Source: Olleya marilimosa CAM030
GTDB taxonomy: Bacteria; Bacteroidota; Bacteroidia; Flavobacteriales; Flavobacteriaceae
Assembly (NCBI RefSeq): GCF_000518485.1
Contig: NZ_JADR01000008.1
Span: 62,001 to 126,000, forward strand
Reading direction: 5' to 3'
Length of the DNA: 64,000 nucleotides
Of the stretch, positions 45,943-64,000 are shown one piece after another (positions within the stretch are counted from its first letter, which is position 1; each line of letters opens with the position of its first letter). The translations under genes were made by a program, and so were the position numbers. Below the pieces are notes generated by a model, which searched no databases, was not told the origin of the DNA, and saw only the letters and a program-made list of their open reading frames with translations.

Positions 45943-45972
45943 TTGTAATATGCAAAAAGGGTTGTATATTTG
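45943..45972 (+). promoter_or_regulatory. consensus promoter of tRNA-fMet
   Basis: TTG (45943-45945), exactly 19 bases, then TATATTTG (45965-45972) match the Bacteroidota consensus. Transcription would start near 45978, about 67 bases before the mature tRNA. Confidence 0.72.
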
Positions 45973-46044
45973 CAGTCCGAAACGATTACGTCGACATTAT
46001 GAATCGAAAGTTAAAAGCTAAGGTAATCATTTAGGAATATAAAT

Positions 46045-46117
<73 letters not shown>

Positions 46118-46128
46118 CTAGTAAAACC

Positions 46129-46158
46129 AAGCCTTTCAAGAAATTGAAAGGCTTTTTT
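46129..46158 (+). terminator. intrinsic terminator after tRNA-fMet
   Basis: AAGCCTTTCAA and TTGAAAGGCTT form a perfect 11-bp stem with a GAAA loop and a T run. It starts 12 bases after the tRNA. Confidence 0.85.
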
Positions 46159-46168
46159 ATTTCACACA

Positions 46169-46188
46169 GTACAGAATAAGTACAGAAT
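46169..46188. repeat. direct repeat GTACAGAAT x2 beside the tRNA
   Basis: GTACAGAAT occurs at 46169-46177 and 46180-46188, an 11-base period, about 50 bases after the tRNA. Short direct repeats next to a tRNA end resemble the arm-type sites of tyrosine recombinases. No recombinase gene is visible here. Confidence 0.4.
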
Positions 46189-46275
46189 TTGGCTGTTTAT
46201 CTTAGACCTTATAGTATTTGATTTAGATTGATTTCATTTAGTATGTGAAATCAAATTTGAACTACATTTTTCTGC

Positions 46276-46346
46276 AAGAATTGAAGATTATGGAGTCGTT
46301 ATTCAAAATTTCTGTCAGTTTTTCATAATGGCTTCAATTCTTTTTT
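46276..46346. repeat. large imperfect inverted repeat before the unknown two-gene unit
   Basis: AAGAATTGAAG plus ATTATG (46276-46292) pairs with CATAAT plus CTTCAATTCTT (46324-46342) across a 31-base loop, with only a GG bulge. A run of six T follows the right arm (46341-46346). It could be a terminator-like attenuator or the boundary of a cassette. A smaller dyad, GATTTCA and TGAAATC, lies at 46230-46252. The remaining gap 46118-46376 holds the tRNA terminator and the direct repeats. Confidence 0.5.
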
Positions 46347-46376
46347 AACTTTAGAAAAATTATAATTCTTTTTCAT

Positions 46377-49618: not shown

Positions 49619-49839
49619 CAATTCAGTCTCTAGTTTAGATAAAAACAATTTACTTATCCAAAGCTTCTTTAAAAAATCTTTAGAATCTTTATCTACATTT
49701 ATACCAAATAAAGACCTGTAAGGGAAGTGTTATTATTTTGATTGGATATGAATACCACTTCTCTTGTCAGGCACAACTATTTGAAAATTATACCATTAAC
49801 AAGAGATATTAGTTGTCTTGTATAAAATTATAAAAGCTT

Positions 49840-51114
49840 GTGAGACTAACTATACTTTTCTTTTTTCTTTTAACCTGCTTTGTCAATGCGCAAGAGGTCA
49901 AAAATCTTGATTTTTTTAAAGAGGAAGCTATTCAAAATACGCCAGTTTTAAAGGATAACGGAAACCTTCAAAAAATAAATGAAATTCAAAATAGTATCAT
50001 TCTTGCCCAAAACAAGGCTTTTCAAATCAATGCCACTTCAGATATTTTAGTAGCACCATACTTTAATAATAATGGTAAAATTGTAGATGTCACCACTACA
50101 CCTTCAGCAAACGCTTTTGGGTATGATATAGGTATTACAAATGGTGGTTTATATTCTGCTCAAATCAATGTTACCAAAAACCTATTTAATCAGGCAATTA
50201 CAGATAATTTACTATTTCAAAATAAAATAGCCAACAATACAATTACGCTATCTTCAGAAGAAATCAATCATAACATTATTAAGAATATTACAGACGCTTA
50301 TATACTTACTTATCAATTACAATTACAGGAAGAATTTACAAAAGAAATTCTAAAAGACCTCGAAAAGCGATTACAAGTTGTAGAATTATTAGTAAAGCGA
50401 GCTGTTTTAATGGAAAGTGATTATTTACTGTTACAACTGGATATTGAAGGCAAAAAATTAGAACTTCAGCAAATACAAAACAACCTTAAAACCTCAATTA
50501 ACCAATTGTACAGTTTAAGCGGAACACCAATTGGATCTATTGAAAAATTGGAAGCACCAAATTTTAATACCACTTCTAAACCTTCACGGTTTTTTTATCA
50601 GAAAAAATTTGAGAATGATAGTCTGCAAGTAGTTGCCAATCAAAAGGTTTTTGAGAATCAATACAAACCGCAGGTTACTGCTTATGCTAATACAGGTTTA
50701 AATGCTGTTGAAATTCCTAATATCTACAGAAGGTTTGGTGCAAGTGCTGGACTGCGGTTAACGATTCCTATTTATGATGGAAAGCAACGCAAGTACAATG
50801 CACAGCAAAGTCTTTTAAAAGAGGAAAGTTTAGCGTTTTACAGGGATAATTCAAAAATACAAGTTAACAACAATATTAAAAATATTGAACAACAAATCCA
50901 GGCCTTGAATGACAATATGGTGCTACTTAACAAACAACTTGAGAAGCAACAAAACATATTAGAAATCTATAAAGGGAAATTGGTTCAGGGACAAATTTCT
51001 ATTGTAGATTATCTAAATGTTATTCAGAATTATAAGCTTAATAGCTACACTAAATTACAAATGCAAACCAACTACTGGTTATTACAAAGCCAGTATAACT
51101 TTATAAACTGGTAA
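49840..51114 (+). CDS. TolC-family outer-membrane efflux protein (second RND operon)
   Basis: 424 residues starting at GTG 49840 (an in-frame stop at 49831 excludes an earlier start). A signal peptide ends CFVNAQ. Two helical halves with long coiled-coil helices (LKDLEKRLQVVELLVKRAVLMESDYLLLQL and LEKQQNILEIYKGKLVQGQISIVDYLNVIQNY) match the OEP/TolC family. First gene of a TolC-adaptor-permease operon. This order differs from the operon at 39024, where TolC comes last, so the two are not recent duplicates. The adaptor ATG follows 6 bases after its stop. The 220-base gap upstream has no promoter I can support. Confidence 0.88.
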   Translation: MRLTILFFFLLTCFVNAQEVKNLDFFKEEAIQNTPVLKDNGNLQKINEIQNSIILAQNKAFQINATSDILVAPYFNNNGKIVDVTTTPSANAFGYDIGITNGGLYSAQINVTKNLFNQAITDNLLFQNKIANNTITLSSEEINHNIIKNITDAYILTYQLQLQEEFTKEILKDLEKRLQVVELLVKRAVLMESDYLLLQLDIEGKKLELQQIQNNLKTSINQLYSLSGTPIGSIEKLEAPNFNTTSKPSRFFYQKKFENDSLQVVANQKVFENQYKPQVTAYANTGLNAVEIPNIYRRFGASAGLRLTIPIYDGKQRKYNAQQSLLKEESLAFYRDNSKIQVNNNIKNIEQQIQALNDNMVLLNKQLEKQQNILEIYKGKLVQGQISIVDYLNVIQNYKLNSYTKLQMQTNYWLLQSQYNFINW

Positions 51115-51120
51115 TTGATT

Positions 51121-52041
51121 ATGAACAAACACTACTTTAAACATATAGCCATTTTATTATTAGTTATTAATTTTTCCGCTTGTAAGAAGAAGGTTGATAC
51201 AGTTTCAGAAAAAAAAGCACCAATAAAAGTAAGCGTTGTTGCTGTTCAACATAATGATATTAAAGAATACCTAACGTTTAATGGTGTTACGCAATACCAA
51301 AGAAAAGAAAATATACGCTCAAATGTAACTGGCTATATTTCTTGGATGAAATATAAAATTGGCGACAATATTCGTAACGGACAAACATTTGCTTCGGTTA
51401 GAACTAAAGAGCAAGATGCGCTTAAAGAAGCTGTTAAAATAGACAGTTCATTATCAAAATTTGTGAGTCCTATAACCATTAGAAGCAATGCTACTGGCGT
51501 TTTTACTGTGCTCAATATAACTGCAAATGATTATGTTGCTGAAGGCGATGTTTTAGCTACAGTAGTGCAACCAAAATCGTTGGTAATACAAGTAAACGTG
51601 CCTTACGAGTATGAAGATGCCGTTAAAATAGGTTCGTCCTGCGAAATTATGTTGCAAAATGGCGAAGTGTTGACTGCGAAGGTAACAGGAACCCTACCTA
51701 CAATAGATTCAGTAGCGCAATCACAAGTATTTTTAATTGCTTTGCCAGATGCAAATCTTCCAGAAAATTTAAATGTTCAGGTAAGGACGATTTACAAAGA
51801 AGATGTAACTGCAATGACCATTCCCAAAACTGCTTTGCAGACCAACGAATTATTATCAGATTTTTGGGTACTGAAAATAGTAAATGACTCAATGGCATTA
51901 AAACAAAAAGTGAAGCCTTTACTTCGGAATGATTCTTTGGTTCAAGTAAAATCAGAACGTCTTAAAGTAAATGATTTAGTGATTACCGAAGGTGGTTACC
52001 AAATGCAGGATTCAACAATTGTAAGCTTCAAAAAACAATGA
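51121..52041 (+). CDS. RND efflux adaptor lipoprotein (second operon)
   Basis: 306 residues from the ATG at 51121; a TTG at 51115 is in frame but less likely. The lipoprotein signal ends INFSACKKK (Cys21), so the protein is anchored in a membrane by lipid. Adaptor features are EYLTFNGVTQYQRKENIRSNVTGYISWMKYKIGDNIRNGQ and ITIRSNATGVFTVLNITANDYVAEGDVL (lipoyl-like halves), then a beta-barrel part. It is shorter than typical adaptors and lacks the long coiled-coil hairpin. It overlaps the permease gene by 4 bases. Confidence 0.88.
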   Translation: MNKHYFKHIAILLLVINFSACKKKVDTVSEKKAPIKVSVVAVQHNDIKEYLTFNGVTQYQRKENIRSNVTGYISWMKYKIGDNIRNGQTFASVRTKEQDALKEAVKIDSSLSKFVSPITIRSNATGVFTVLNITANDYVAEGDVLATVVQPKSLVIQVNVPYEYEDAVKIGSSCEIMLQNGEVLTAKVTGTLPTIDSVAQSQVFLIALPDANLPENLNVQVRTIYKEDVTAMTIPKTALQTNELLSDFWVLKIVNDSMALKQKVKPLLRNDSLVQVKSERLKVNDLVITEGGYQMQDSTIVSFKKQ

Positions 52042-55037
52042 AAAAACTGCATTCCAATTATAAATTCCCGTTACTCGCTATAGGTATTCTAATACTTATT
52101 GGAGGGTTTTTTACATACCAGAATTTAAAGACAGGTTTATTTCCAGATATTACGTTTCCGAAGATTAAGGTTATTGCAGATGCAGGACAACAACCTGTGG
52201 ACAAAATGATGACTACCGTAACCATTCCTTTAGAAAACATCATCCGTCGTACAGAAGGTTTACAATATATACGCAGTACAACCTCTCGTGGGAGTTGTGA
52301 GATTTCAGTCTTTTTAGATTGGAATATGGATATCAATACTGCCAAAGCACAAATAGAGTCCTTTATCAATCAGTCACAAGGAAGTATTCTACCAAACACC
52401 AAGTTTTCCGTAGAAAAAATGAACCCATCTATTTTGCCGGTTATGGGCTATTCCTTAGAGGGAGAAGGCTTATCGCAAGTAGATTTAAAGAAGATTGCAA
52501 AGTATCAGGTAAAACCATTTTTAGCAGCTACACCAGGCGTTTCAGACATTGCCGTAATTGGCGGTAAAGACAAAGAGTTTCAGGTTATTTTAAAACCAGA
52601 TGTTATCAAATCTTTGGGGATTTCTATTGCAACTATTCAAAATGCTGTAGTCAATTCTAACCTACTACAATCCAATGGCTACATCACAGATTTTAATAGA
52701 ATGTACCTTACGCTTACCGATAATGCAGTAGATGATATTGACGATTTACAAAACCTCGTTATCATCAATAGTCCTAATCGATTAATACGGTTGAAAGACG
52801 TTGCTAATATTGAAGTTAACGAAGTCAAGGAGTATGTGAAAATCCTTGCCAATGGTAAAAATGTGCCTATCATCGCAGTAGTAAAACAACCGAATGCAAA
52901 CCTTATTGAAGTCAATAATACCATTGAACAAAAAGTTGCAGAACTCTCAAAAACACTACCTAAAGGCGTTGTGATAAAGCCCTATTACAAACAAGCAGAT
53001 TTTGTAAACACCAGTATTGCGAGTATCAAAGATGTGTTGTGGATTGGTTTGGTTTTGGCACTTTTGGTTGTGATTCTATTCTTGCGTTCGTTTTCCGCAA
53101 GTATGGTAGTGCTGTTTACCATTCCTGTGTCCTTGTCTTTAACGCTCATTGTTCTTGATGCCATAGGTTACACTTTTAATATTATGACTTTGGGAGCAGT
53201 TGCAGCTGCCATTGGCTTAATGATAGATGATGTTGTAATTATTATTGAACAAATACATAAAATTAGAGAAGAGCATCCAGAACAACCAATGAGTTGGGTA
53301 GCACACGAGGCTATTACGCATCTGTTTCCTGCAATGATTGGCTCATCTTTAAGTACGCTGGTTATTTTTATCCCTTTTGTTTTAATGACAGGAGTAGCAG
53401 GCGCGTATTTTCAGGTAATGGCATTTAGTATGATTATTGCTTTATCTGCGTCCTTTTTAGTCACTTGGTTAGTTGTGCCTGTATTATCTATTTTGTTTAC
53501 GAAGAACAAATCGGTAGAGCGCAAACACGAGCCAAAAACAAAGTGGATTCATAGCGTATTAAGCAAACCAATTATTGGAATTTTCTTTTTATTGGTTTGC
53601 GTCGTTATTCTTGTAGTCATCCCTTCTAAATTGCCATCTGGATTTTTGCCAGAAATGGATGAAGGTAGTATTGTTTTAGATTATAATAGTCCGTCAGGAA
53701 CTACTCTGGAAGAAACCGATAGAATGTTACAAATTGTAAATGGAGTTTTGGACACACAGCCTGAAGTCGAAGCGTATTCGGCAAGATTAGGAACACAAAT
53801 GGGTTTCTTTATTACTGAACCTAATCGTGGCGATTATTTGATTAAGTTGAAAGATAAGCGTAATAAAACCACAACTGAAGTTTCAGATGAGATTAGAAAG
53901 CGTGTTGAAGAAAAAATTCCACAATTAACCATTGATTTTGGTCAGGTCATTGGCGATATGTTAGGGGATTTAATGAGTTCTGTTCAGCCCATAGAGATTA
54001 AGGTTTTTGGAACTAATATAAATACCTTGGAAAGCTTGTCACAGGAAATAGCTAAAGAAGTTGAAACTGTTCAAGGTACAGCAGATGTAAATGATGGTAT
54101 TATTGTCGCAGGACCAAGTTTGTCCATAGTCCCAAACGTTCCCAAACTTTCACAATTAGGAATGACAGTTGCTGATTTTCAATTACAGTTACAAACCCAA
54201 GTTGAAGGAACAGTTGTAAGCTCGATGATAGATAAAGAACAAATGGTAGATATTCGTCTTATTTATCCAAATGCACAACAAACTTCAGTATCTGATATAA
54301 AAAATACAGCCATCTTATTGCCAAATGGTTCTAGCGTACCTATCAATCAAGTGGCATCTATTGAAATGGGAAAAGGTGTAGCAGAAATCAATCGTGAAAA
54401 TCAAAAATCGATGGGTGTAATTACCGCAAGATTAAACAATCGTGATTTAGGATCTACACTCAAAGACATCCAAAGTCATTTAAATAATAATGTATCACTT
54501 CCTGCTGGGTATTCGATCGAATATGGAGGCGCTTACAAAGAACAACAAAAGGCATTTAAAGAGTTGATGATGATATTAATATCTGCCATATTACTGGTGT
54601 TTATTGTGATATTATTTCTATTCAGAAAAGTTAAGATTGCATTGGCAATTATTGTAATTGCGATATTAGGAGTTGCTGGAAGTTTATTGAGTTTATACTT
54701 GACAGGAACACCTTTAAATGTTGGTAGTTATACTGGAATTATTATGATAGTTGGGATTATTGGTGAGAACTCAATTTTCACTTACAGGCAGTATCAAGAA
54801 AGCGATAATTCCTTATCACATATAGAAAAAATTGAATACTCAATTGCAGCACGATTACGACCTAAATTAATGACTGCTTTTGCAGCAATAATGGCATTAA
54901 CACCTTTAGCATTAGGTATTGGTGCAGGTGCGCAATTACATCAACCATTAGCCATTGCTGTAATTGGAGGATTGTTATTTGCATTACCGTTGTTGCTAAT
55001 CGTATTACCTACAATTTTGAAAGTCATAAAGGAATAA
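52038..55037 (+). CDS. RND efflux permease (second operon)
   Basis: 999 residues with the twelve-helix RND layout. TGLFPDITFPKIKVIADAGQQPVDKMMTTVTIPLE near the N-terminus, GLMIDDVVIIIEQIHKIREEHPE in helix 4 (acidic proton-relay pair) and GMVVGIIGENSIFTYRQY-like sequence near the end (IMIVGIIGENSIFTYRQY) identify the family. It is shorter than the first permease and closer in style to the Bacteroidota pumps between HAE1 and HME types. Substrate unknown. The next gene, a VIT transporter, starts 13 bases after the stop and may be in the same transcript. Confidence 0.9.
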   Translation: MKKLHSNYKFPLLAIGILILIGGFFTYQNLKTGLFPDITFPKIKVIADAGQQPVDKMMTTVTIPLENIIRRTEGLQYIRSTTSRGSCEISVFLDWNMDINTAKAQIESFINQSQGSILPNTKFSVEKMNPSILPVMGYSLEGEGLSQVDLKKIAKYQVKPFLAATPGVSDIAVIGGKDKEFQVILKPDVIKSLGISIATIQNAVVNSNLLQSNGYITDFNRMYLTLTDNAVDDIDDLQNLVIINSPNRLIRLKDVANIEVNEVKEYVKILANGKNVPIIAVVKQPNANLIEVNNTIEQKVAELSKTLPKGVVIKPYYKQADFVNTSIASIKDVLWIGLVLALLVVILFLRSFSASMVVLFTIPVSLSLTLIVLDAIGYTFNIMTLGAVAAAIGLMIDDVVIIIEQIHKIREEHPEQPMSWVAHEAITHLFPAMIGSSLSTLVIFIPFVLMTGVAGAYFQVMAFSMIIALSASFLVTWLVVPVLSILFTKNKSVERKHEPKTKWIHSVLSKPIIGIFFLLVCVVILVVIPSKLPSGFLPEMDEGSIVLDYNSPSGTTLEETDRMLQIVNGVLDTQPEVEAYSARLGTQMGFFITEPNRGDYLIKLKDKRNKTTTEVSDEIRKRVEEKIPQLTIDFGQVIGDMLGDLMSSVQPIEIKVFGTNINTLESLSQEIAKEVETVQGTADVNDGIIVAGPSLSIVPNVPKLSQLGMTVADFQLQLQTQVEGTVVSSMIDKEQMVDIRLIYPNAQQTSVSDIKNTAILLPNGSSVPINQVASIEMGKGVAEINRENQKSMGVITARLNNRDLGSTLKDIQSHLNNNVSLPAGYSIEYGGAYKEQQKAFKELMMILISAILLVFIVILFLFRKVKIALAIIVIAILGVAGSLLSLYLTGTPLNVGSYTGIIMIVGIIGENSIFTYRQYQESDNSLSHIEKIEYSIAARLRPKLMTAFAAIMALTPLALGIGAGAQLHQPLAIAVIGGLLFALPLLLIVLPTILKVIKE

Positions 55038-55050
55038 TTTATATTAAAAA

Positions 55051-55740
55051 ATGAAAATAGAACAACATTACGGACACAGGGGGAACTGGTTAAGAGCAGC
55101 AGTTCTTGGCGCAAATGATGGTATTCTATCTACAGCAAGTATTATTATTGGTGTTGCAGCAGCAAGCACCACAAGGGAACCTGTTATTTTAGCTGGTGTT
55201 GCAGGTTTAGTAGCTGGAGCATTATCTATGGCAGCAGGTGAATATGTTTCGGTGAGTTCTCAAACTGATATTGAAAAAGCAGATTTGGCAAGAGAACATA
55301 AAGAACTCGAAGAAATGCCAGAACAAGAATTAGAGGAACTTACTAAAATTTATGAAAAACGAGGGCTTTCCAAAAACTTGGCTTATCAAGTTGCAAAAGA
55401 ACTAACTGCACATAATGCTCTTGAAGCTCACGCTCGTGATGAATTAGGAATTAATGAAATTACGCAAGCTCATCCATTGCAGGCGGCTTTATCATCTGGT
55501 GCAGCGTTTACCTTTGGTGGTATATTGCCTGTTTTGGTCGCTATGTTCGGTTCAATAACTAAAATGGAATATTTACAATATGGTTTTGCCATTCTATTTT
55601 TAACCGTACTAGGAGCTATAGCTGCTAAAGTTGGTGGAAGTAGCATAAAAAAAGCTATTATCCGAATAACATTTTGGGGAACTGTAGCAATGGTGTTAAC
55701 CGCAGCTGTTGGGTATTTGTTTGGGACAAGTATTAGATAA
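55051..55740 (+). CDS. VIT1/CCC1-family Fe/Mn transporter
   Basis: 229 residues. The sequence HRGNWLRAAVLGANDGILSTASIIIGVAAA (~9-38) and GALSMAAGEYVSVSSQTDIEKADL (~56-79) are the first two helices of this family with their conserved Gly, Asp and Glu residues. An acidic helical cytoplasmic domain (~80-135; EHKELEEMPEQELEELTKIYEKRG) holds the metal-binding glutamates. Three further helices follow. The family moves Fe2+ or Mn2+ out of the cytoplasm. Encoded 13 bases after the RND permease and 53 bases before a DUF1003 gene on the same strand. Confidence 0.9.
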   Translation: MKIEQHYGHRGNWLRAAVLGANDGILSTASIIIGVAAASTTREPVILAGVAGLVAGALSMAAGEYVSVSSQTDIEKADLAREHKELEEMPEQELEELTKIYEKRGLSKNLAYQVAKELTAHNALEAHARDELGINEITQAHPLQAALSSGAAFTFGGILPVLVAMFGSITKMEYLQYGFAILFLTVLGAIAAKVGGSSIKKAIIRITFWGTVAMVLTAAVGYLFGTSIR

Positions 55741-55793
55741 TTTCAGATTAGGGTTACATTTTTAATATAAACTAATTTTTAAAAAGTAAACAA

Positions 55794-56495
55794 ATGGAAA
55801 CATTTAAAAGCAACATATCAAACAATGAGTTTCCTAAATCTGAAGTGGTTCTGGCTGTAAACATTCGAGCTTCTATTTTTGAATTTATTAAGACTGAAAA
55901 CCCCAATTTTAATAAACATAGTAAACTTGCTATTTCTGAGTTAAACCGTTTTAGACAGAAATACTTAGAAAGCTATCTTTTAAAAGAAGCTGGAGATTTA
56001 TCACAATTAGAATTGGATGTTTTAAAAAGTATTGAAAAACAAGAATTAATTTCAGCTAATATCATTTCCGAAGAGAAAGAAACATCGAGTAATTATGGTC
56101 AACGATTAGCAGATAAAGTGGCTTCTTTTGGAGGTAGCTGGAAATTTATCATTCTTTTTTCTGTCATTATTTTTATTTGGATTACAGCAAATATTGTATT
56201 TCTTGCTAATAAAGGGTTTGATCCCTATCCATTCATATTACTTAATCTAATTTTATCATGTTTGGCAGCTTTGCAAGCACCAGTAATTATGATGAGCCAA
56301 AATAGGCAGGAAGAAAAAGACAGAGATCGAGCCAAACAAGATTACATGATAAACTTAAAGGCAGAATTAGAAATAAGAACTTTGCACGAAAAACTAGATC
56401 ACCTCATTATACATCAACAACAAGAGTTATTAAATATTCAGCAAGTACAAGTAGAAATGATGGAAGATATTATGAGGAAAATAAACACAAAATAG
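55794..56495 (+). CDS. DUF1003 membrane protein with N-terminal extension
   Basis: 233 residues. The DUF1003 core (~100-210) has two membrane helices (WKFIILFSVIIFIWITANIVFL and FILLNLILSCLAALQAPVIMM), the motif GFDPYPFILLN between them, then SQNRQEEKDRDRAKQDYMINLKAELEI and a helical C-terminus. The extra ~95 residues at the N-terminus (SELNRFRQKYLESYL, LELDVLKSIEKQELIS) are helical and absent from the second DUF1003 protein at 57855. The family's function is unknown. In an apparent plus-strand operon with VIT, patatin and the DUF6134-like gene. Confidence 0.88.
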   Translation: METFKSNISNNEFPKSEVVLAVNIRASIFEFIKTENPNFNKHSKLAISELNRFRQKYLESYLLKEAGDLSQLELDVLKSIEKQELISANIISEEKETSSNYGQRLADKVASFGGSWKFIILFSVIIFIWITANIVFLANKGFDPYPFILLNLILSCLAALQAPVIMMSQNRQEEKDRDRAKQDYMINLKAELEIRTLHEKLDHLIIHQQQELLNIQQVQVEMMEDIMRKINTK

Positions 56496-56502
56496 TTAAA
56501 AA

Positions 56503-57267
56503 GTGGATAGAATAGGAGTAGCACTATCTGGAGGTGGAGCGCGAGGTGCAGCACATATTGGTGTACTTCAAGCGTTAAATGACAATAGTATATTTCCAGA
56601 TCGAATTTCGGGTACAAGTGCCGGAAGTATAATTGGAGCATTGTATTGCTATGGCTATACACCAAATGAGATTTTAATGCTTTCTCACGAAAAAGCATTT
56701 CTAAAAATTTTTAAAATCGGTTTTTTGAATAAAGGGTTAACAGAACTTACATACTTAAAAGATTTTCTGAAAAGTCATATAGCAACTAACAAGTTCGAAG
56801 ACTTAAAATTACCTTTACATATATGTATTTCTAATATTAACTCAGGAAAATTTGAGATTATTTCTCAAGGAGATTTGTTTGAGGTTTTAGCAGCATCTTG
56901 TGCTTTACCGCTTTTGTTTAAATCTGTCAAAATTAATGGAAACACATATTTAGATGGAGGTTTGCTAAATAACCTTCCCGTAGAACCATTATTAAAACAA
57001 TGCGAAAAAGTAATAGGTGTTAGTGTTTGTCCTCATGAAATCAGAAATGACATTAAAGGAATCAGAAATATTGCAGAACGTTGTCTTCAGCTCGCCATTT
57101 GGGGAACAATGCAACATCGTTTAAATCAATGTAATATAGCGTTAGAAATCGAAAAATCTTTTAAATATGGAATGTTTGACGTTAAAAAGTCGCAAGAACT
57201 TTTCGATATTGGTTATGAATCGACTATTGAAAGGATGGAGGACATAAAACAAAAACTTAAGAATTAA
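56503..57267 (+). CDS. patatin-like phospholipase
   Basis: 254 residues starting at GTG 56503, 7 bases after the DUF1003 stop. The glycine-rich oxyanion motif SGGGARGAAHIGVL (~9-22) is followed by the nucleophile elbow GTSAG (Ser39) and the catalytic Asp in LDGGLLNN (~150). All residues of the Ser-Asp dyad are present. No signal peptide, so it acts on cytoplasmic-face lipids. Related families include RssA-type esterases. Its neighbours are membrane and ion-stress proteins, which suggests membrane remodelling; this is inference. Confidence 0.92.
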   Translation: MDRIGVALSGGGARGAAHIGVLQALNDNSIFPDRISGTSAGSIIGALYCYGYTPNEILMLSHEKAFLKIFKIGFLNKGLTELTYLKDFLKSHIATNKFEDLKLPLHICISNINSGKFEIISQGDLFEVLAASCALPLLFKSVKINGNTYLDGGLLNNLPVEPLLKQCEKVIGVSVCPHEIRNDIKGIRNIAERCLQLAIWGTMQHRLNQCNIALEIEKSFKYGMFDVKKSQELFDIGYESTIERMEDIKQKLKN

Positions 57268-57278
57268 AATTTATAAAT

Positions 57279-57866
57279 ATGAAATATGAGCTTATAGCCT
57301 TATTGATTTTAACAAGTAGCTTCGTAATCGCACAAAGTGAAACACTTAACTATGATTTAAGTGTGGAAGGAAGTTCTATAGGTACTTTAACAGCTGTTAA
57401 AACTGTAGAAGGAAATAATACTACCTACGCAGCAAATAGTATAGCAACCGTACATTTATTTGGCGAAACACAAATAACAACGTACTTAATTGTAAAATTC
57501 ACAAATGGGATATTGCAGTCTAGTCATTACAGGATTGAAAAGAATGGAACACTCAATGATGAATCGACTATTATTCTTAAAAATGGTGTTTATAACATAA
57601 ATCATAATGGTAAAACCACACAAATAAATTCGCCAATAACGTATACCACAACAATGTTATATTTTGAAGAACCGAAAAAAGTTGATACTGTTTTTGCTGA
57701 GCTTGAGGGAATAAATAAAAATATTGTCAATAGTGGTGTATCTACATATCAATTAACAGATCCTGGTAACCATCATACAAATAATTATACCTACGAAAAT
57801 GGAGTGCCAAAAGAAGCTTTAATATCGCATACATTATTCAATTTTAAGCTGTCCCTAAAGAAGTAG
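57279..57866 (+). CDS. secreted DUF6134-like protein
   Basis: 195 residues with a signal peptide ending SFVIAQ (~19). The rest is beta-rich (SETLNYDLSVEGSSIGTLTAVKTVEGN, YAANSIATVHLFGETQITTYLIVKF), a lipocalin-like or beta-clam pattern seen in DUF6134 proteins. The assignment is by overall look. It is the last gene of the plus-strand operon VIT-DUF1003-patatin-DUF6134, and its 3' end overlaps the convergent DUF1003 gene by 12 bases. No terminator separates the two operons, so antisense overlap of the transcripts is likely. Confidence 0.72.
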   Translation: MKYELIALLILTSSFVIAQSETLNYDLSVEGSSIGTLTAVKTVEGNNTTYAANSIATVHLFGETQITTYLIVKFTNGILQSSHYRIEKNGTLNDESTIILKNGVYNINHNGKTTQINSPITYTTTMLYFEEPKKVDTVFAELEGINKNIVNSGVSTYQLTDPGNHHTNNYTYENGVPKEALISHTLFNFKLSLKK

Positions 57867-58265
57867 TCTTTTATCGTTCTGAGATAGTTTAGCGACCATA
57901 TCTTTTAATTCTTTAACCTCTTTTAAAAGGGTTGTAATTTCTTTTTCAGCTTTGATATTTACATTAAAATCATTTTCAGCACGAATTTCGGCACGTTTTG
58001 CCTGAAGATTTTGACCAACCATTAATAATGGCATCAAAAAAATTTGTATCATATTTGATATAAAGAGCCATAAAACAGAAGCCGGATAAGGATCAAAGCG
58101 TAAATGTTTAGGTGTAAACATATTCCAACTCAACCATAACACAGTCCAAAAAAATATAACCAGAAAAAAACCAATTGTGCCAATTTTATCTGTTATCCAA
58201 ATGGCAAATCTTTCTGAAGCTTTAAGTTCATTTTTATAAATATGATTGGTGTTTTTAATTTCCAT
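57855..58265 (-). CDS. DUF1003 membrane protein, short form
   Basis: 136 residues. The DUF1003 core alone: two membrane helices, the FDPYPASVLWLF motif (shared FDPYP with the plus-strand paralogue), VGQNLQAKRAEIRAENDFNVNIKAEKEI and a helical C-terminus. It lacks the N-terminal extension of the copy at 55794. It is the last gene of the minus-strand unit APC permease-MscS-DUF1003, 11 bases after MscS, and meets the plus-strand operon tail to tail. Confidence 0.88.
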   Translation of the reverse strand: MEIKNTNHIYKNELKASERFAIWITDKIGTIGFFLVIFFWTVLWLSWNMFTPKHLRFDPYPASVLWLFISNMIQIFLMPLLMVGQNLQAKRAEIRAENDFNVNIKAEKEITTLLKEVKELKDMVAKLSQNDKRLLL

Positions 58266-58276
58266 TATCTTAGCTA

Positions 58277-59134
58277 TTAATTATTTTCATTATTCTTAGA
58301 GTACGTTATGGTTCGTTGAGGAAAAGGAATTTCAATACCCTCATTATCAAAACGGTTTTTTATGCTTTGTAGCAAATCACAATATAATACATACCCATCA
58401 CTAGAATCTTTAGCCCAAGCCCAAACTCTTAAATTTACATCTGAATCGCCTAAAGCAGTTACCCTTGCAATTACCAAAGGAACATTGTTTTCGATATCTT
58501 CAGTGGTGCGATTATCTATATGTAAAGGATGATTACCAACTTCCTCTTTCATAATGTCTAGCGCACGTTCTATATTTGATGAATAACCAATACCAATGTC
58601 AATCAGTTTGCAACACTTTTCTTCACCAATATGAGCGTTTACAATTAGGTCGCTACTAATAACTGAGTTTGGTATAATTATCCTATTGTTTTCAAAATCT
58701 CTAATCACGACTTGTCTTAGATTAATGTCTTCTACAGTTCCAGTAAAAGAGCCTCTTAAAGTAATTTTATCATTTATTCTGAAAGGTTTAAATACAACAA
58801 TTAAAATACCACTCATAATATTACTTAATGCTTGTTGTGATGCTAAACCTGCTATTAGTGAAATCACACCAGCACCAGCCAGTAATGAGTGTCCTACAAT
58901 TTTAAATTCAGGTATTTGTACTAAAGCAAAAGCAAACCCTATAGCGTATACCAATGCTGTTAGAATATGTTTTAAAAATAAATAACCAGTAAGATCTCTA
59001 TGATGATTAATAAGCGATTTTTTTATAAATCGTTTTAGAAACCAATTTAAGAGTATGGAAAAAAAAATAGTACCAACAATTATTATAGCAATAGTAGTTT
59101 CTATTTTAAATTCTGAAAAATATTTTTGCATCAT
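58277..59134 (-). CDS. MscS-type mechanosensitive channel
   Basis: 285 residues. Three membrane helices occupy the first ~95 residues. The pore-lining helix reads HSLLAGAGVISLIAGLASQQALSNIMSGI, the Gly/Ala-rich TM3 of MscS. FRINDKITLRGSFTGTVEDINLRQVVIRDFENNRIIIPNSVI is the beta domain, followed by the alpha/beta vestibule. The channel releases solutes under hypo-osmotic stress. Encoded 4 bases after the APC permease and 11 before DUF1003 on the same strand, one operon. Confidence 0.93.
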   Translation of the reverse strand: MMQKYFSEFKIETTIAIIIVGTIFFSILLNWFLKRFIKKSLINHHRDLTGYLFLKHILTALVYAIGFAFALVQIPEFKIVGHSLLAGAGVISLIAGLASQQALSNIMSGILIVVFKPFRINDKITLRGSFTGTVEDINLRQVVIRDFENNRIIIPNSVISSDLIVNAHIGEEKCCKLIDIGIGYSSNIERALDIMKEEVGNHPLHIDNRTTEDIENNVPLVIARVTALGDSDVNLRVWAWAKDSSDGYVLYCDLLQSIKNRFDNEGIEIPFPQRTITYSKNNENN

Positions 59135-59138
59135 TTGA

Positions 59139-60869
59139 TTAGATTATTAAACGAACTTCGCCCAATTCTTGAATTTTATATGGAAACTTATGTCCAGGGG
59201 AAGCAATAAACATAAAGTTTATTGGAATATGCCAACGTTTGGATAGTTCTTTAATTTTTTCAGGACCAAAAACACCCGGCTCTATAATAAACTCGACATT
59301 AATTAAGGGATAAGCTCTATCTAAAGTTTCAATATCTTTTGTAAGATTTGTAGCAATAGTTTCGCCTTCATCTAAAACGGTTACAATTTTTACGCTTCGC
59401 GTAGATTCATTATTAGAAATATATGATAGCACCTTATTTAAAATAGATACATCATCATGATTGGTAAAATAGACAAATTGCTGTTTGTTAATAGAATTGA
59501 GTGCTTTTTTTATTGGTTTTTTTAGCTTAATAAAAAGTGAATTTTTTTCTGGAAAAGCATAGTCAAGAATTTTTAGAAAAACTTTAAAGATAGAAGTACG
59601 ATATAACATAAAGAACACAACAGCTAACGTTGGTATGAGATATTCCATAAAAATGGCTAAATATTGTGGGTTTAAAATCACATTACCAACAATCGCAGCT
59701 GCAACTGCTATGACACCTATAAATAATCCTAACCAACTTGATCTTTCGGGTCTGGGTAATCGAGAACGATTTACTTTTAGCAACAAGTTTCCGATACCAA
59801 ATAAAATCATAACAGACAAAAAAGCAATGGTATAAACACCAGCTAATTTTGCTAAGTCACCTTGAGTAATCAACAAAATGGAAACACAGAGTCCAAAAAA
59901 CAACACGAAGATTAAATAATTACTTCCTTTTTTCGTTTTCTTCAAGAGTACTTTTGGCAGTATTCTATCTAAAGCCATGCGTTTCATCAAGCCACCGACA
60001 CCAACAAATGAGGTAAGTACTGCGCCACTTAATACTAATGCTGCATCTATCCCAATTAGTAATGATAACCAATTTCCACTAGCGGTTTTTCCCATTATGG
60101 ATAATAATGCATCTTGATTATCTACAACAGTAGAAATAGGTATGATGCACAAAGCCAAAAAAGCAATTAGTGGATTAAAAACTGTAACTACTACCCACAT
60201 ATTACGTAAGGTTTTTGGGAAAACACCTTTTTCCTGTTCTTCAACATAATTAGCAGAACTTTCAAAGCCACTAATACCCAACATAGCAGCAGAAAAACCT
60301 AAAAATAAAGCAGTAATTATACCACCTTTTACTGGTGTGTTAAAATTAGAAAAGAGTATTTCCGTTCCATTTTCAAATAAGAAAACTAAACTGAATCCGC
60401 AGAGTATAATGAGTGATAATAAGTGAAATAGAAATATAGCAATCGCTACTTTAGACGATTCGCCAATACCTAAAATTACCAATCCCATAAATAACAAAAG
60501 CAAACCAATGGTAACAGGAATTACAGGAATAACAATCCAAATACTATGCGCATATTTCACAGCTTCACTTGTAGAAATGACTGCTGTTGCCATATAAGAT
60601 AGTACGGTTAAGGCAGCTGCTAATGAAGCAGTAGATTTTTTAGTAGTGTTTAGTAAAGCATTGTAAGCACCACCATTTAAAGGTAAAGCACCTACAACTT
60701 CGCCATATATTTTTCTAAAAAAGAAAAGTACAACAGCAACCATTAAAAGTGAAATCCAAGCATATTGCCCTGCATATACAATAGCCAGTGCAGAGACATA
60801 TAAACAAGAAGAACTTATATCATTACCGCAAATGGCTGTGGCTTCTAATTGATTGAGTTTTTTTGCCAT
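59139..60869 (-). CDS. APC-superfamily permease with soluble C-terminal domain
   Basis: 576 residues. The first ~430 form about twelve membrane helices with NDISSSCLYVSALAIVYAGQYAWISLLM at the first two, GGAYNALLNTTKKSTASLAAAL, and ISGFESSANYVEEQEKGVFPKTLRN, all typical of amino acid-polyamine-organocation permeases. The last ~130 residues (FVYFTNHDDVSILNKVLSYISNN ... VEFIIEPGVFGPEKIKELSKRW) form a soluble alpha/beta domain resembling a universal-stress-protein fold. The substrate is unknown. First gene of the APC-MscS-DUF1003 operon and divergent from the channel-like gene at 60927. Confidence 0.88.
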   Translation of the reverse strand: MAKKLNQLEATAICGNDISSSCLYVSALAIVYAGQYAWISLLMVAVVLFFFRKIYGEVVGALPLNGGAYNALLNTTKKSTASLAAALTVLSYMATAVISTSEAVKYAHSIWIVIPVIPVTIGLLLLFMGLVILGIGESSKVAIAIFLFHLLSLIILCGFSLVFLFENGTEILFSNFNTPVKGGIITALFLGFSAAMLGISGFESSANYVEEQEKGVFPKTLRNMWVVVTVFNPLIAFLALCIIPISTVVDNQDALLSIMGKTASGNWLSLLIGIDAALVLSGAVLTSFVGVGGLMKRMALDRILPKVLLKKTKKGSNYLIFVLFFGLCVSILLITQGDLAKLAGVYTIAFLSVMILFGIGNLLLKVNRSRLPRPERSSWLGLFIGVIAVAAAIVGNVILNPQYLAIFMEYLIPTLAVVFFMLYRTSIFKVFLKILDYAFPEKNSLFIKLKKPIKKALNSINKQQFVYFTNHDDVSILNKVLSYISNNESTRSVKIVTVLDEGETIATNLTKDIETLDRAYPLINVEFIIEPGVFGPEKIKELSKRWHIPINFMFIASPGHKFPYKIQELGEVRLII

Positions 60870-60926
60870 ACGGTAAATTTACTAAAGAAATCTTAAGTAA
60901 ATTTGAAGTTTATAATTGTAATTATC

Positions 60927-61283
60927 ATGTCATTTTTAAGATTTGAACAAAAGAAAAGTCCTGTTATTCAAAGGAAAAGATTTTTTATTAGAGCATTACG
61001 CTACGTAATGTATGCAATAATTATGGTGGCTATCTCTGTTTCTATTGGCACTTTAGGTTATCATTATTTTGGATTTTTATCTTGGATAGACGCTTTCTAT
61101 AATGCCTGTATGATACTTGCTGGCGTCGGGCCAATAGCAGAAATGCCAAATGACACCGCTAAATTATTTGCATCTTTTTATGCCCTTTTTAGTGGTACTG
61201 CTTTTTTTAGTGTTATTGCGGTAGTAATGGCACCAATCGTTCATAGGTTTTTACATATTATAAATTCTGATAATACCGAATAA
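60927..61283 (+). CDS. two-TM ion-channel-like protein with altered selectivity filter
   Basis: 118 residues from the ATG at 60927 (a TTG at 60903 would add eight hydrophobic residues). Layout: a basic N-terminus, helix 1 (~26-48), a pore loop and helix 2 (~78-100). WIDAFYNACMILAGVGPIAEMP followed by AKLFASFYALFSGTAFFSVIAVV has the exact spacing of the pore loop and second helix of two-TM potassium channels, where the filter reads TTVGYGD. Here the filter position reads AGVGP (65-69), so potassium selectivity is doubtful. No soluble sensor domain. Divergent from the APC-MscS-DUF1003 operon and upstream of a two-component system. Confidence 0.75.
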   Translation: MSFLRFEQKKSPVIQRKRFFIRALRYVMYAIIMVAISVSIGTLGYHYFGFLSWIDAFYNACMILAGVGPIAEMPNDTAKLFASFYALFSGTAFFSVIAVVMAPIVHRFLHIINSDNTE

Positions 61284-61350
61284 TCATAGATTTCGTCTTT
61301 AGAATATATTTAGAATCAAATACTAATTTTATTGTTTTAAATTTATAGAA

Positions 61351-62025
61351 ATGAAATATTTAATAGCTGAAGACGAACTCGATTTACAACAATCTATTGT
61401 TACGTATTTACAACGTGATGGCAATATCTGTGAAGTAGCTTCAGATTTTGGGGAAGCTTCAGAAAAAGCCGCTATATACGATTACGATGTTATTATTTTG
61501 GATATTAATTTAGTCACAGGTAGTGGATTAGACGTACTTAAAACGTTGAAGAAAGAAAAGAAAAGAGCTGGTGTGATAATTATTTCTGCAAACAATTCAT
61601 TGACAGATAAACTGGAAGGCCTCGATCTAGGTGCGGATGATTACATTACTAAACCTTTTCATTTAGCAGAATTAAATTCTCGCATTAATGCTGTACTTCG
61701 ACGTGGCAAATATGGTGGCGATGAAATTATGGAGTTCAACGAAATAAAAATTGATACCAAATCCAGAACCGCTTACATTGATGGTAAAGCAATGGCTTTA
61801 ACACGCAAGGAATACGATTTATTGGTATTCTTTATATCTAACAAAGGACGTGTCCTTTCTAAAGAAATCATTGCAGAACATCTTTGGGGAGATGATAGCG
61901 ATTTACTCGATAATTTTGATTTTATTTACGTACACATCAACAACTTGCGTAAAAAGTTAACTGCGGAAGGTGCAAAGTATATCAAAACAGCCTATGGAAG
62001 TGGGTATAAATTTATAGAAGATTAA
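61351..62025 (+). CDS. OmpR/PhoB-family response regulator
   Basis: 224 residues. Receiver domain ~1-120 with the acidic pocket E7-D8, phospho-acceptor Asp51 (VIILDIN), and Lys in ITKPF. A winged-helix DNA-binding domain follows (~130-224; LTRKEYDLLVFFISNKGRVLSKEIIAEHLWGDD ... VHINNLRKKL ... IKTAYGSGYKF). The histidine kinase gene starts 3 bases after its stop. The pair stands just before the metal-pump cluster and after the channel-like gene, so either could be the target. Confidence 0.95.
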   Translation: MKYLIAEDELDLQQSIVTYLQRDGNICEVASDFGEASEKAAIYDYDVIILDINLVTGSGLDVLKTLKKEKKRAGVIIISANNSLTDKLEGLDLGADDYITKPFHLAELNSRINAVLRRGKYGGDEIMEFNEIKIDTKSRTAYIDGKAMALTRKEYDLLVFFISNKGRVLSKEIIAEHLWGDDSDLLDNFDFIYVHINNLRKKLTAEGAKYIKTAYGSGYKFIED

Positions 62026-62028
62026 TCC

Positions 62029-63291
62029 GTGTCTAAAAAAATAAAACTTATAAAAAAAACATCCAAAACCTTCTTAATTACTGGGTTGTTTTTAGCATTG
62101 CTGAGTTCCATAGCTTTGTTCTTTTATACCAGCCATCTTTTAAAAAGTGAAGTTGAAGAGGTTTTGTATTCCACAGAAGCAAGAGTTGAAGCTGCCTTAA
62201 AAAATAATCGAAAAATATACTCATTACCACCAGTTACAGAGGTTCGGGAGGTTGAAATTTTAGGAAAAGAAATATTAAAGGACACCATCATTTATGATCC
62301 TTCAGAAGATGAAATGGAATTGTTTCGAGAACTATCCACCTACAAAGCAATCAATGGGAAAAACTATCAGATAACCATTAGAAATATGGTCGTCGAATCT
62401 GAAGATTTTGCTTTAGCCATTGTTATCTCAAATATAGCCATATTCGTTTTAGCTTTCATATTTTTATTTTATTTCAATACCACAAGAAATCTTCAGTTAT
62501 GGAGTCCTTTTTTCAAGAATTTAGAGCAGATGAAACGATTCTCGCTCACATCAAAAGAGCCATTGCGTTTAGTTGATAGCGATGTTTTAGAGTTTTCAGA
62601 ATTAAAAACCGAAATTGAGACATTAACAGATAAAGTAAGGTCAGATTATGAGAGTTTAAAGCAGTTTACGGAAGATGTCTCGCACGAAATGCAAACGCCT
62701 TTAGCAATCATTCAGGCAAAAATTGATAACCTTATTAATGAGCAGGAGATAAGTGATAAACAGTTTGAGCAAGTTACCTCTATTCAAAAAGATATTCAAC
62801 GCTTAAAACAACTTAATAAGAGAATAACGACCTTAACTAAAATTGACAATAATCAATTTATAAATATTGAAAATATCAACCTATCAGATTTAATAAAGGA
62901 AAAGATTGAAAGCTTTAAAGAGCTTCAATTTGCAAATCTCGTTTACACTTTAAAAAACGAATTATTTGTTTCTATGGATGCCTACTTAGCAGATATTTTC
63001 ATTAATAACTTGGTTTCAAATGCCATAAAACACAGTAAAAAAAATGAAGAGATTGCTGTCGTCACAAAAGATAACTTACTCATTATTTCAAATTTTGGAG
63101 AAAAGGCCTTGGCACATCCCGAAAATTTGTTTTTACGTTTTTATCGAGAATCTAACGCCAATCAATCCACAGGTTTAGGATTGGCAATCGTTAAGAAAAT
63201 ATGTGATTTATATGGGTTTAAAATCTCATATCAATTTGAGGTTGACCACCATGTATTTTCAATAGATTTTTCAGTTGTAAATAAAAGTTAA
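62029..63291 (+). CDS. sensor histidine kinase
   Basis: 420 residues starting at GTG 62029. Two membrane helices (~13-34 and ~128-148) flank a periplasmic sensor of ~90 residues with no known fold. The phospho-acceptor His219 lies in DVSHEMQTPLAII. N-box LADIFINNLVSNAIKHS, a weak G1 region, and G2 STGLGLAIVKKICDLYG mark the ATPase domain. HAMP is short or absent. It pairs with the response regulator 3 bases upstream. Kinases of this shape next to RND metal pumps often sense metals, but the sensor here shows no obvious metal-binding cluster. Confidence 0.93.
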   Translation: MSKKIKLIKKTSKTFLITGLFLALLSSIALFFYTSHLLKSEVEEVLYSTEARVEAALKNNRKIYSLPPVTEVREVEILGKEILKDTIIYDPSEDEMELFRELSTYKAINGKNYQITIRNMVVESEDFALAIVISNIAIFVLAFIFLFYFNTTRNLQLWSPFFKNLEQMKRFSLTSKEPLRLVDSDVLEFSELKTEIETLTDKVRSDYESLKQFTEDVSHEMQTPLAIIQAKIDNLINEQEISDKQFEQVTSIQKDIQRLKQLNKRITTLTKIDNNQFINIENINLSDLIKEKIESFKELQFANLVYTLKNELFVSMDAYLADIFINNLVSNAIKHSKKNEEIAVVTKDNLLIISNFGEKALAHPENLFLRFYRESNANQSTGLGLAIVKKICDLYGFKISYQFEVDHHVFSIDFSVVNKS

Positions 63292-63308
63292 GAGAAAGCA
63301 TAACGTTA

Positions 63309-63345
63309 TTTGCAATACCATTGCATTAAATAATTTATATCTTTG
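63309..63345 (+). promoter_or_regulatory. promoter with palindromic operator before the metal-pump genes
   Basis: TATCTTTG (63338-63345) fits the -7 consensus and lies 5 bases before the ATG at 63351, predicting an almost leaderless mRNA. Possible -33 boxes are TTTG (63309-63312, 25-base spacing) and TTG (63321-63323, 14-base spacing). The perfect 6-3-6 palindrome TGCAAT-ACC-ATTGCA at 63311-63325 lies over this region and looks like an operator. Confidence 0.45.
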
Positions 63346-63350
63346 CTACG

Positions 63351-63662
63351 ATGAAATTTTTAGCTTTTATATTATCAATTTATATTTTCGCGCTTAATTT
63401 AGCACCTTGCGAAGATTATACTACGCTTGATAATGAGGTGCAAACTGAGATTTCACAAGGTATGGACAATGACCATCAACATCAAGATTCTGGTTTATGT
63501 TCGCCTTTTTGCATTTGTCAATGCTGCCATGTAAGTGCTGTGAATTTTGATATTCCAGATTTAAAATTAGACATATCTTTTATTTCCACAAAAGATGTTT
63601 TATACCTAAGCGGTTCAGAAAAAGACTTCACAAATTCCGTTTTACAACCACCACAAGTGTAA
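63351..63662 (+). CDS. secreted Cys/His-rich protein, DUF6660-like
   Basis: 103 residues. The N-terminus is a signal-like helix (MKFLAFILSIYIFALNLAPC). The middle carries DNDHQHQDSGLCSPFCICQCCH (~43-64): four His and five Cys in a short stretch, a probable metal-binding site. A hydrophobic tail follows. Small proteins of this kind precede RND heavy-metal pump genes in flavobacteria. It may be a periplasmic metal chaperone or buffer (inference). The pump gene starts about 100 bases downstream. Confidence 0.75.
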   Translation: MKFLAFILSIYIFALNLAPCEDYTTLDNEVQTEISQGMDNDHQHQDSGLCSPFCICQCCHVSAVNFDIPDLKLDISFISTKDVLYLSGSEKDFTNSVLQPPQV

Positions 63663-63759
63663 TGAATACCTGCTACGCAGGTGTATTATAAATCTATGCT
63701 ACCATCGATACTCTTTGGTAACTATTCTTTATTTATAAATTCATTATAACTATAATTCT

Positions 63760-64000
63760 ATGATTAATAAAATCATTGATTTTTCAATCAATAACAAATT
63801 CATTATTGGTTTGCTAACGCTTACCATTGTTGGAGCTGGTATTTGGAGTATGACTCAAGTACCTATCGATGCGGTACCAGATATTACCAACAACCAAGTA
63901 CAAGTCATTACGCAAGCACCAAATTTAGGAACAGAGGATATTGAGCAAATCATAACCTATCCAGTAGAGGTAGCAATGAGCAATCTACCTAATGTCCAAG
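63760..64000 (+). CDS. CusA/CzcA heavy-metal RND efflux permease, N-terminal part
   Basis: Eighty residues from the ATG at 63760, cut by the window end. MINKIIDFSINNKFIIGLLTL is the first membrane helix. VPIDAVPDITNNQVQVITQAPNLGTEDIEQIITYPVE is diagnostic for the heavy-metal (HME) branch of RND pumps, which export Cu+/Ag+ or Zn2+/Co2+/Cd2+ from the periplasm. The metal cannot be told from this part. The upstream Cys/His-rich protein and palindromic operator support a metal-controlled operon. Confidence 0.93.
   Translation, partial: MINKIIDFSINNKFIIGLLTLTIVGAGIWSMTQVPIDAVPDITNNQVQVITQAPNLGTEDIEQIITYPVEVAMSNLPNVQ

Follow-up and report, generated by a model that had tools for sequence, protein, structure and literature searches.

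The stretch of DNA analysed here, called the window below, spans 64,000 nucleotides of Olleya marilimosa CAM030 (contig NZ_JADR01000008.1, positions 62,001 to 126,000), and we looked at a pair of convergent operons in it, each with a gene for a DUF1003 protein, together with the efflux genes and the two-component system that flank them. A sequence-only reading had placed genes for a VIT transporter, a DUF1003 protein (DUF1003-A), a patatin and a DUF6134 protein on one strand, facing an APC permease, an MscS channel and a second DUF1003 protein (DUF1003-B) on the other, and had proposed that they serve one envelope or osmotic stress response. All seven genes were found at the coordinates that it had given and scored above the Pfam cut-offs. 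It had also described a 12-base 3' overlap without a terminator: the overlap lies at 57855-57866, and none of the six terminator-like sites detected across 48500-64000 (7.2 were expected in shuffles) falls at the convergence. Scans for sigma-70 promoters and terminators gave no excess over shuffled sequence, and a scan for the Bacteroidota TTTG/TANNTTTG promoter gave nothing usable. As units, however, the two operons had been drawn too short, since an RND efflux operon lies upstream of the VIT gene, and a channel-like gene followed by genes for a response regulator (RR) and a sensor histidine kinase (HK) occupies 60903-63291. The RND gene ends 13 bases before the VIT gene, which is separated from DUF1003-A by 53 bases, and the plus-strand unit most likely starts at 49840 and includes the three efflux genes. 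The genes and the predicted regulatory sites (TM, transmembrane helix) are as follows.

49667-49684, plus strand: predicted RR site CTTTAAA-AAAT-CTTTAGA before the RND operon (rank 3 of 127,966; conserved in L245)
49840-51114, plus strand: outer-membrane efflux protein OEP2 (PF02321)
51115-52041, plus strand: membrane-fusion protein MFP2 (PF13437/PF16576)
52038-55037, plus strand: RND efflux permease, CusA/CzcA-like (TIGR00914, 486.8 bits, under the cut-off of 701)
55051-55740, plus strand: VIT1-family Fe/Mn transporter (PF01988, 230 bits; VIT1 6iu3, E 1e-16)
55794-56495, plus strand: DUF1003-A (PF06210, 144.1 bits against a gathering cut-off of 27.4)
56503-57267, plus strand: patatin-like phospholipase (PF01734, 129 bits; PlpD 5fqu, E 3.6e-27)
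57279-57866, plus strand: DUF6134 protein (PF19630, 67 bits)
57855-58265, minus strand: DUF1003-B, short form (PF06210, 86.7 bits against a gathering cut-off of 27.4)
58277-59134, minus strand: MscS-type mechanosensitive channel (PF00924, PF21082)
59139-60869, minus strand: APC-superfamily permease, AA_permease_2 (PF13520, 176 bits, residues 5-401 of 576)
60881-60908, minus strand: predicted RR site in the APC/channel gap (overlapping registers 60881-60898 and 60891-60908; rank 2)
60903-61283, plus strand: two-TM pore-loop, K-channel-like protein (Ion_trans_2, E 0.039, below cut-off)
61297-61314, plus strand: predicted RR site before the RR gene (rank 1 of 127,966; 36 bp from the RR start)
61351-62025, plus strand: OmpR-family RR (PF00072 and PF00486; 8jo2/4s04, E 4e-37)
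62029-63291, plus strand: HK of the PorY family (NF052314, 407 bits, cut-off 350)

The VIT1 match to PF01988 is full-length (profile positions 1-213 of 214); family membership is assigned by score, and transport is predicted from it. Patatins are marked by a glycine-rich oxyanion loop, a GxSxG motif and a DG[AG] motif, and the translation of the patatin gene, read directly, contains SGGGARG (GGGxRG), GTSAG and DGG. Beyond the permease match, the APC protein extends C-terminally by about 150 residues or more. PDB searches with its single sequence or with a 14-sequence profile gave no permease match, and a KimA-type K+ importer, considered as its identity, gained no support from these searches, though a distant kinship is possible. 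The channel-like protein matches NaK and MthK weakly (E 0.16-0.7), and its filter-like stretch reads GVGP in place of the canonical K+ filter. Its gene probably starts at the ATG at 60927, with a gap of 57 bases to the divergent APC gene.

A predicted response-regulator site in three promoters of the locus

The RR has BasR/PmrA as its nearest solved relative, and three promoters of the locus carry a PmrA-box-like element, the predicted RR site, which is an 18-bp direct repeat CTTTARA-N4-CTTTAGA with an 11-bp period. It lies 36 bp before the RR start, where it predicts autoregulation, 11-21 bp before the APC start and about 155 bp before the OEP2 start that we used. The motif was first spotted by eye with the promoters of the window in view; the site at 61297 and the tests with position-specific scoring matrices (PSSMs) and controls came later. 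With a PSSM made from the sites of five relatives, the top three of 127,966 positions in the window were the RR, OEP2 and APC/channel promoters, and with a PSSM made from the three window sites, the Arenibacter APC, RR and OEP2 promoters ranked 1, 3 and 4. An independent PSSM was built from nine RR promoters and four promoters of a sulfatase gene (described below), all from other genomes and none from the window or from any OEP2 or APC/channel promoter. The RR promoter of the window and the sulfatase promoter of its own genome (L346) were kept out of it, as were the RR loci L359 and L363 (weak site or none), L361 (site on the other strand) and L364 (same genome as L360). With this PSSM, the RR, APC/channel and OEP2 promoters were again the top three of 127,966 positions in the window, and 0 of 60 column-shuffled PSSMs placed the OEP2 or the APC/channel region in the window's top three. 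In Arenibacter (L144), it ranked the APC, RR and OEP2 promoters 1, 3 and 4 of 40,740 positions, rank 2 lying in a called open reading frame (ORF). In genome G125, whose cluster is cut in two (see below), the OEP2 promoter ranked first in L245 and the channel-gene promoter third in L224.

We found the RR in 13 of 149 sampled genomes, that of O. marilimosa included. When the 300 bp upstream of its orthologues were searched (12 other genomes), 11 of the 13 loci had their best match 34-39 bp ahead of the start, and in 10 it scored above the 95% null score; outside the window, ORFs came from a simple longest-ORF script, so that start codons and distances are approximate there. A strong site was also seen inside the 5' end of a called beta-lactamase-like ORF of Arenibacter (L144:4862-4879), and the real start of this ORF may therefore be further downstream.

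The Salmonella PmrA box is described, in the available text of PMC3973317, as the head-to-tail half-sites CTTAAG and XTTAAT, five bases apart, and the available part of a further source also gives PmrA boxes as head-to-tail half-sites (PMC10927774). Like it, the predicted site has head-to-tail TTAA-type half-sites with an 11-bp period and stands before the predicted targets and the RR, although the half-sites here are mostly YTTAGA/YTTAAA and not YTTAAK. The likeness to PmrAB/BasSR of enterobacteria and Acinetobacter extends to the RR itself, of the OmpR family and nearest to BasR among solved structures, and to the predicted targets, among which are an enzyme resembling lipid-headgroup transferases, a lipid kinase and PAP2 phosphatases. 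A headgroup transferase, a lipid kinase and PAP2 enzymes belong to the general picture of Pmr targets. Still, the system here is not PmrAB itself, because the RR fails the PmrA equivalog NF007928 (156.9 bits against 330), the HK fails the PmrB model NF008025 (66.5 bits against 314) and is of the PorY family, and the transferase is LtaS/OpgB-like and not EptA/PmrC in the searches made. The predicted regulon also adds RND, patatin, MscS, APC, VIT and DUF1003 proteins. Nor is it PorXY: the kinase passes the PorY cut-off, but its partner, encoded beside it, consists of Response_reg and Trans_reg_C domains, whereas PorX is CheY-like with a PglZ-type domain.

Lipid enzymes with the site and neighbourhoods in other genomes

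In L224 and L225, a gene of 658 residues has the site as well, 46 bp upstream. Its product is an LtaS/OpgB-like, phosphoglycerol-transferase-type "sulfatase" (VP1736 3lxq and LtaS 2w8d are its best PDB matches) that stays below all NCBIfam cut-offs; none of its 14 PDB matches is named EptA or MCR, EptA genes elsewhere not having been searched for. Close orthologues have the site 39-49 bp upstream in five of five cases, including that of O. marilimosa itself (C7:155903, outside the window), and it was not found upstream of two more distant homologues. In L225, the sulfatase gene is followed by a YegS-type lipid kinase and then by a PAP2 phosphatase (LpxE-like, below cut-off), and PAP2 genes of L225 and L342 have the site in front of them too. 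A row of sulfatase-YegS-PAP2-HD-PAP2-OEP-MFP-RND-patatin genes occurs in two Flagellimonas and two Allomuricauda genomes, and there the best-scoring site of each locus lies where the first PAP2 gene begins. Physical linkage in one lineage and a common site in another thus suggest that the lipid and the RND-patatin genes belong to one functional set. In Arenibacter, L342:1176-7893 shows further sites beside PAP2, an unknown 155-residue gene and a two-domain glycosyltransferase, all of which are possible further members of the predicted regulon.

DUF1003 was found in 108 of 395 genomes of the class. We read the neighbourhoods of 98 class loci, which by our count cover 99 of the 125 listed DUF1003 places outside the genome of O. 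marilimosa, and also, from named genomes, those of 80 DUF1003-B loci. In the Arenibacter locus (L144), the row OEP-MFP-RND-NDH2-small ORF-patatin runs towards APC-small ORF-APC2-MscS-DUF1003-B, and RR-HK lie past APC. In Flagellimonas (L145, L158) and Allomuricauda (L146, L148), OEP-MFP-RND-patatin faces MscS-DUF1003-B, and the ends are 3 bases apart. The patatin gene of Flagellimonas amoyensis is split into two ORFs with its neighbours intact (L158:10397-11167). Bizionia (L159) has DUF1003-B-ClC-HdeD, DUF6134 and then Mqo-Na/H exchanger-VTT-DUF1003-A-patatin facing MscS; G131 has DUF1003-A-patatin with MscS close by; and in Maribacter (L042, taken to be the same contig as L149) and G133, DUF1003-A is divergent from APC. 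A locus of another family, L109, shows an RND-like gene (27%), VIT-DUF1003-A and then RR (50%)-HK (L109:1887-13617), and is a looser, possibly independent version of the arrangement. No DUF1003 was found in G125, where the cluster is cut inside the patatin gene: OEP-MFP-RND and the 5' part of patatin lie at 2.31 Mb, HK-RR-channel-APC and the 3' part at 1.05 Mb, and the site is kept on the channel-gene side of the APC/channel gap. On the single contig of this genome, the patatin parts are 1.27 Mb apart (L224:16570-17100 and L245:9633-9857); their orientation fits one large inversion, and the split could also be an assembly artefact.

The sequence-only reading had set its proposal against homologues scattered independently with no shared regulation. 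In Flavobacteriaceae, we observed instead that parts of the locus recur together in several genera, and that one and the same predicted RR site is present in the promoter of each convergent operon. The conserved co-location that it had expected thus holds in several genera of this family and not class-wide, where within about 10 kb of DUF1003 we counted VIT in 5 of the 98 loci, channel-like genes in 4, APC in 3, patatin in 2, MscS in 2 and DUF6134 in 0.

The HdeD (DUF308) and Na/H exchanger genes of Bizionia resemble part of the transmissible locus of stress tolerance and locus of heat resistance clusters, which carry sHSP20, ClpK and FtsH genes in addition to HdeD and Na/H exchanger genes. 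This identity was set aside, only hdeD- and exchanger-like genes having been noticed in L159, where heat-shock genes were not searched for.

Weighing one regulon against other explanations

The explanation that we favour, with moderate confidence, is that one envelope-stress regulon, under the adjacent PorY-family HK and BasR/PmrA-like RR, has the convergent operons as its two arms. The RR would bind the direct repeat at three places. One precedes its own gene, one precedes the RND operon, whose transcription would extend into VIT, DUF1003-A, patatin and DUF6134, and one lies in the APC/channel divergon, where the RR would control APC, MscS and DUF1003-B. The RR would also control the LtaS/OpgB-like lipid-headgroup transferase elsewhere in the genome, after which YegS lipid kinase and PAP2 phosphatases come in relatives. 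The RND system would export a membrane-damaging agent, envelope lipids would be rebuilt while the patatin clears damaged lipids, and VIT, MscS, APC and the channel-like protein would handle the ensuing ion leak, with DUF1003-A and DUF1003-B as small two-TM membrane components of this ion arm. Gene content, recurrent linkage and the conserved site are read directly from the sequences, and they support a predicted shared regulation in this lineage; the binding of the site by the RR, the sign of the regulation, the signal, the long transcript and the activity of each protein we infer. Of the envelope or osmotic response proposed earlier, the envelope part agrees with the predicted co-targets, which are lipid enzymes, and the form that is supported is a Pmr-like envelope-lipid and efflux regulon. 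A literature search on the flavobacterial combination of these parts returned no paper with four of the five terms.

Several results weigh against this explanation or narrow it. Among 24 other APC loci, only that of Arenibacter (L144) has the site at the APC gene, and our confidence, slightly higher before, was lowered after this control. No site was found in the tested DUF1003, MscS and APC promoters of Bizionia (L159), Maribacter (L042), G133 (L048) and G131 (L047), nor directly before OEP2 or MscS in Flagellimonas (L145). The predicted regulon is lineage-specific, because the APC site is so rare and because the site is missing in Bizionia, Maribacter and two other genera in which DUF1003 adjoins patatin, MscS or APC. 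The short distance between the site and the APC start makes activation there uncertain. Among the RR loci, the site is missing in L363, weak in L359, where it lies at 21 bp, and on the other strand in L361. The IUPAC pattern is not enriched genome-wide: its matches and those of the reversed control number 18 and 14 in O. marilimosa, 15 and 12 in Arenibacter, 25 and 29 in G125, and 18 and 24 in G013. The signal of the site is its clustering: three of the 18 matches in O. marilimosa are in the three promoters of the locus, and seven of the 15 in Arenibacter fall within 37 kb around the locus. One long transcript from RND through DUF6134 is proposed from the gaps between the genes, and among the genomes examined VIT and DUF1003-A directly follow the RND operon only here, so that their membership depends on that transcript. 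That the two DUF1003 proteins work in a single machine is not supported, since the linkage of DUF1003-A changes from genus to genus, since it lacks the site in the Bizionia, Maribacter, G133 and G131 loci, and since the APC site is nearly confined to this locus and that of Arenibacter.

An osmotic or ionic stress island, in which MscS, APC, VIT, the channel-like protein and DUF1003 serve together in ion homeostasis and the lipid and efflux genes merely happen to lie next to them, would agree with the neighbours of DUF1003 elsewhere, which in a raw tally include Kup, bestrophin, Na/H exchanger, VIT, ClC, TMEM175 and MscS among the 25 of 73 families listed. The channel-like gene directly after DUF1003-A in four class loci (L059, L070, L084, L094) fits it as well, and so does Bizionia, where DUF1003-B is tied to ClC and HdeD, and DUF1003-A to Mqo and the Na/H exchanger. 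We nevertheless consider such an island unlikely, since lipid enzymes and the RND operon, too, have the predicted site upstream, and since the lipid enzymes and RND-patatin genes form one row facing DUF1003-B-MscS in the Flagellimonas and Allomuricauda genomes.

That unrelated accessory genes were gathered by horizontal transfer and converge by accident seems improbable to us. The patchiness of DUF1003 speaks for it (10 of 149 sampled family genomes and 1 of 10 genus genomes), as does the finding of any one partner within about 10 kb in only 0-5 of the 98 class loci. Against it, the block recurs in several genera, both arms have the same predicted site, and adjacency is well over expectation: of 17 VIT, patatin, MscS, APC and channel matches in the class loci, 13 adjoin DUF1003 where 2.4 would be expected, and in the B loci 9 of 17 do so where 2.2 would be expected, and an APC orthologue is present in 8 of 10 DUF1003-bearing genomes against 16 of 139 others (Fisher p 5e-6; one of these 24 matches in 149 genomes, that of G080, is partial), figures that ignore kinship among the genomes, which tells against our explanation too. 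The adjacency test covered 95 of the 98 class loci and 64 of the 80 B loci; L149, L146, L148, L158, L156, L183, L184, L153 and L217 were omitted from the B loci as lying on the same contig as another locus or having a near-identical order, L116 as fragmented, and further loci because the simple ORF caller found no DUF1003 in them. Among directly adjacent same-strand genes (52 for DUF1003-A and 55 for DUF1003-B), none of the 25 families listed, out of 73, occurs more than 3 times with A or more than 6 times, the count of MscS, with B.

A metal-resistance island, in which the RND, the VIT transporter and a heavy-metal-type two-component system answer Fe, Mn, Cu or Zn and the rest hitch-hikes, is hardly probable: CusA/CzcA (TIGR00914) is the best-scoring model of the RND, the VIT1 family consists of metal transporters, a VIT gene adjoins DUF1003 in 3 of 95 class and 1 of 64 B loci, and L109 combines an RND-like gene with VIT-DUF1003-A and RR-HK, but the RND stays under the CusA/CzcA cut-off, the RR and HK are under those of the heavy-metal models with the HK passing PorY instead, the predicted co-targets are lipid enzymes, and no VIT match turned up in Arenibacter or Flagellimonas, whose loci span about 20 kb each.

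The two DUF1003 proteins

The FDPYP, QN and N-x-KAE-x-EI motifs that the sequence-only reading had seen in both proteins are indeed common to them, and the N-terminal extension by which it had told them apart is real, since the domain occupies residues 113-212 of 233 in DUF1003-A and 29-127 of 136 in DUF1003-B. This extension of about 110 residues is helical in the model. Over the shared part, the proteins are 29% identical (profile-profile E 6e-25), and at this identity they represent two distinct subfamilies and not a recent duplication; no other DUF1003 gene was found in the genome. For both, the predicted fold has two hydrophobic helices, the second running into a very long C-terminal helix. 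Mean predicted local distance difference test scores (pLDDT) were 72 for A, with a predicted template modelling score of 0.35, and 75.5 for B, and because these pLDDT values are middling only the topology of the models is trusted. A Foldseek search of the PDB with the DUF1003-A model gave no match with E <=0.001. A zinc ribbon in the N-terminal extension, an idea that comes from proteobacterial DUF1003 members, was dropped: a Cys at position 6 of the stretch compared occurs in 18 of 81 sequences, and the only other Cys column above 15% falls in the membrane part.

In collinear hhalign comparisons with the low-affinity iron permease family PF04120, DUF1003-A scored 30.0 (probability 28%) and DUF1003-B 26.8 (probability 20%), with a shallow alignment of 10 sequences and a column-shuffled maximum of 21.5 in 30, obtained for A; the aligned parts correspond to window positions 56130-56429 and 57885-58181. 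DUF1003 is thus possibly remote kin of PF04120, which we take as a lead only. A Flavobacteriaceae Pmr-like regulon under a PorY-family kinase and a BasR-like regulator, linking lipid-headgroup, lipid-kinase and PAP2 enzymes and RND efflux to a membrane-repair and ion arm (patatin, MscS, APC, VIT), in which DUF1003 proteins would be small two-TM ion-conducting or channel-partner subunits and perhaps PF04120 kin, is a tentative and rather doubtful proposal.

DUF1003 is common as a family, yet almost without literature under DUF1003, COG4420 or PF06210. The available text of PMC4839699 reports that SAN_2180, a DUF1003 protein of group B Streptococcus, is encoded by the gene most down-regulated without CiaR, and that its L. 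lactis homologue is linked to acid and multistress tolerance. SMU_1307c, a DUF1003 protein of S. mutans, is reported in the available part of PMC9163064 to acquire repeated mutations, some of them nonsense, in laboratory evolution. As far as this text goes, SAN_2180 is one precedent for a DUF1003 stress protein under a two-component regulator. These proteins share the DUF1003 domain with those described here; they come from another phylum, and the available parts of the sources mention no RND, patatin or MscS linkage. If the proposed role is true, it would be the first mechanistic one for DUF1003: with two members under a candidate regulator that has a readable DNA site and co-targets, the function is open to test. 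By means of the site, a Pmr-like envelope regulon could also be traced in the Flavobacteriaceae that carry this RR.

A viral scan with DUF1003-A as a single sequence gave no relative, and with the DUF1003-A alignment 76 contigs of the viral collection (L266-L341) were found to encode DUF1003 relatives, which are either prophage cargo or bacterial DNA misfiled as viral. By tblastn, homologues of DUF1003-A are present in the plasmid collection. A plasmid origin of the locus was rejected, as a distant plasmid DNA search matched at most 6% of the query, and in the 20 of 116 records listed the match lay wholly in the VIT gene.

Elsewhere in the window, a further RND operon lies at 39024-44663, and the interval between the two RND operons (44849-49618) holds a leucine-rich repeat protein and ORFs of 526 and 554 residues without Pfam matches. 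The kinase gene is followed, at 63351-63999, by genes for a DUF6660 protein and for a second RND protein, very long at 1444 residues (L041:5761-10095).

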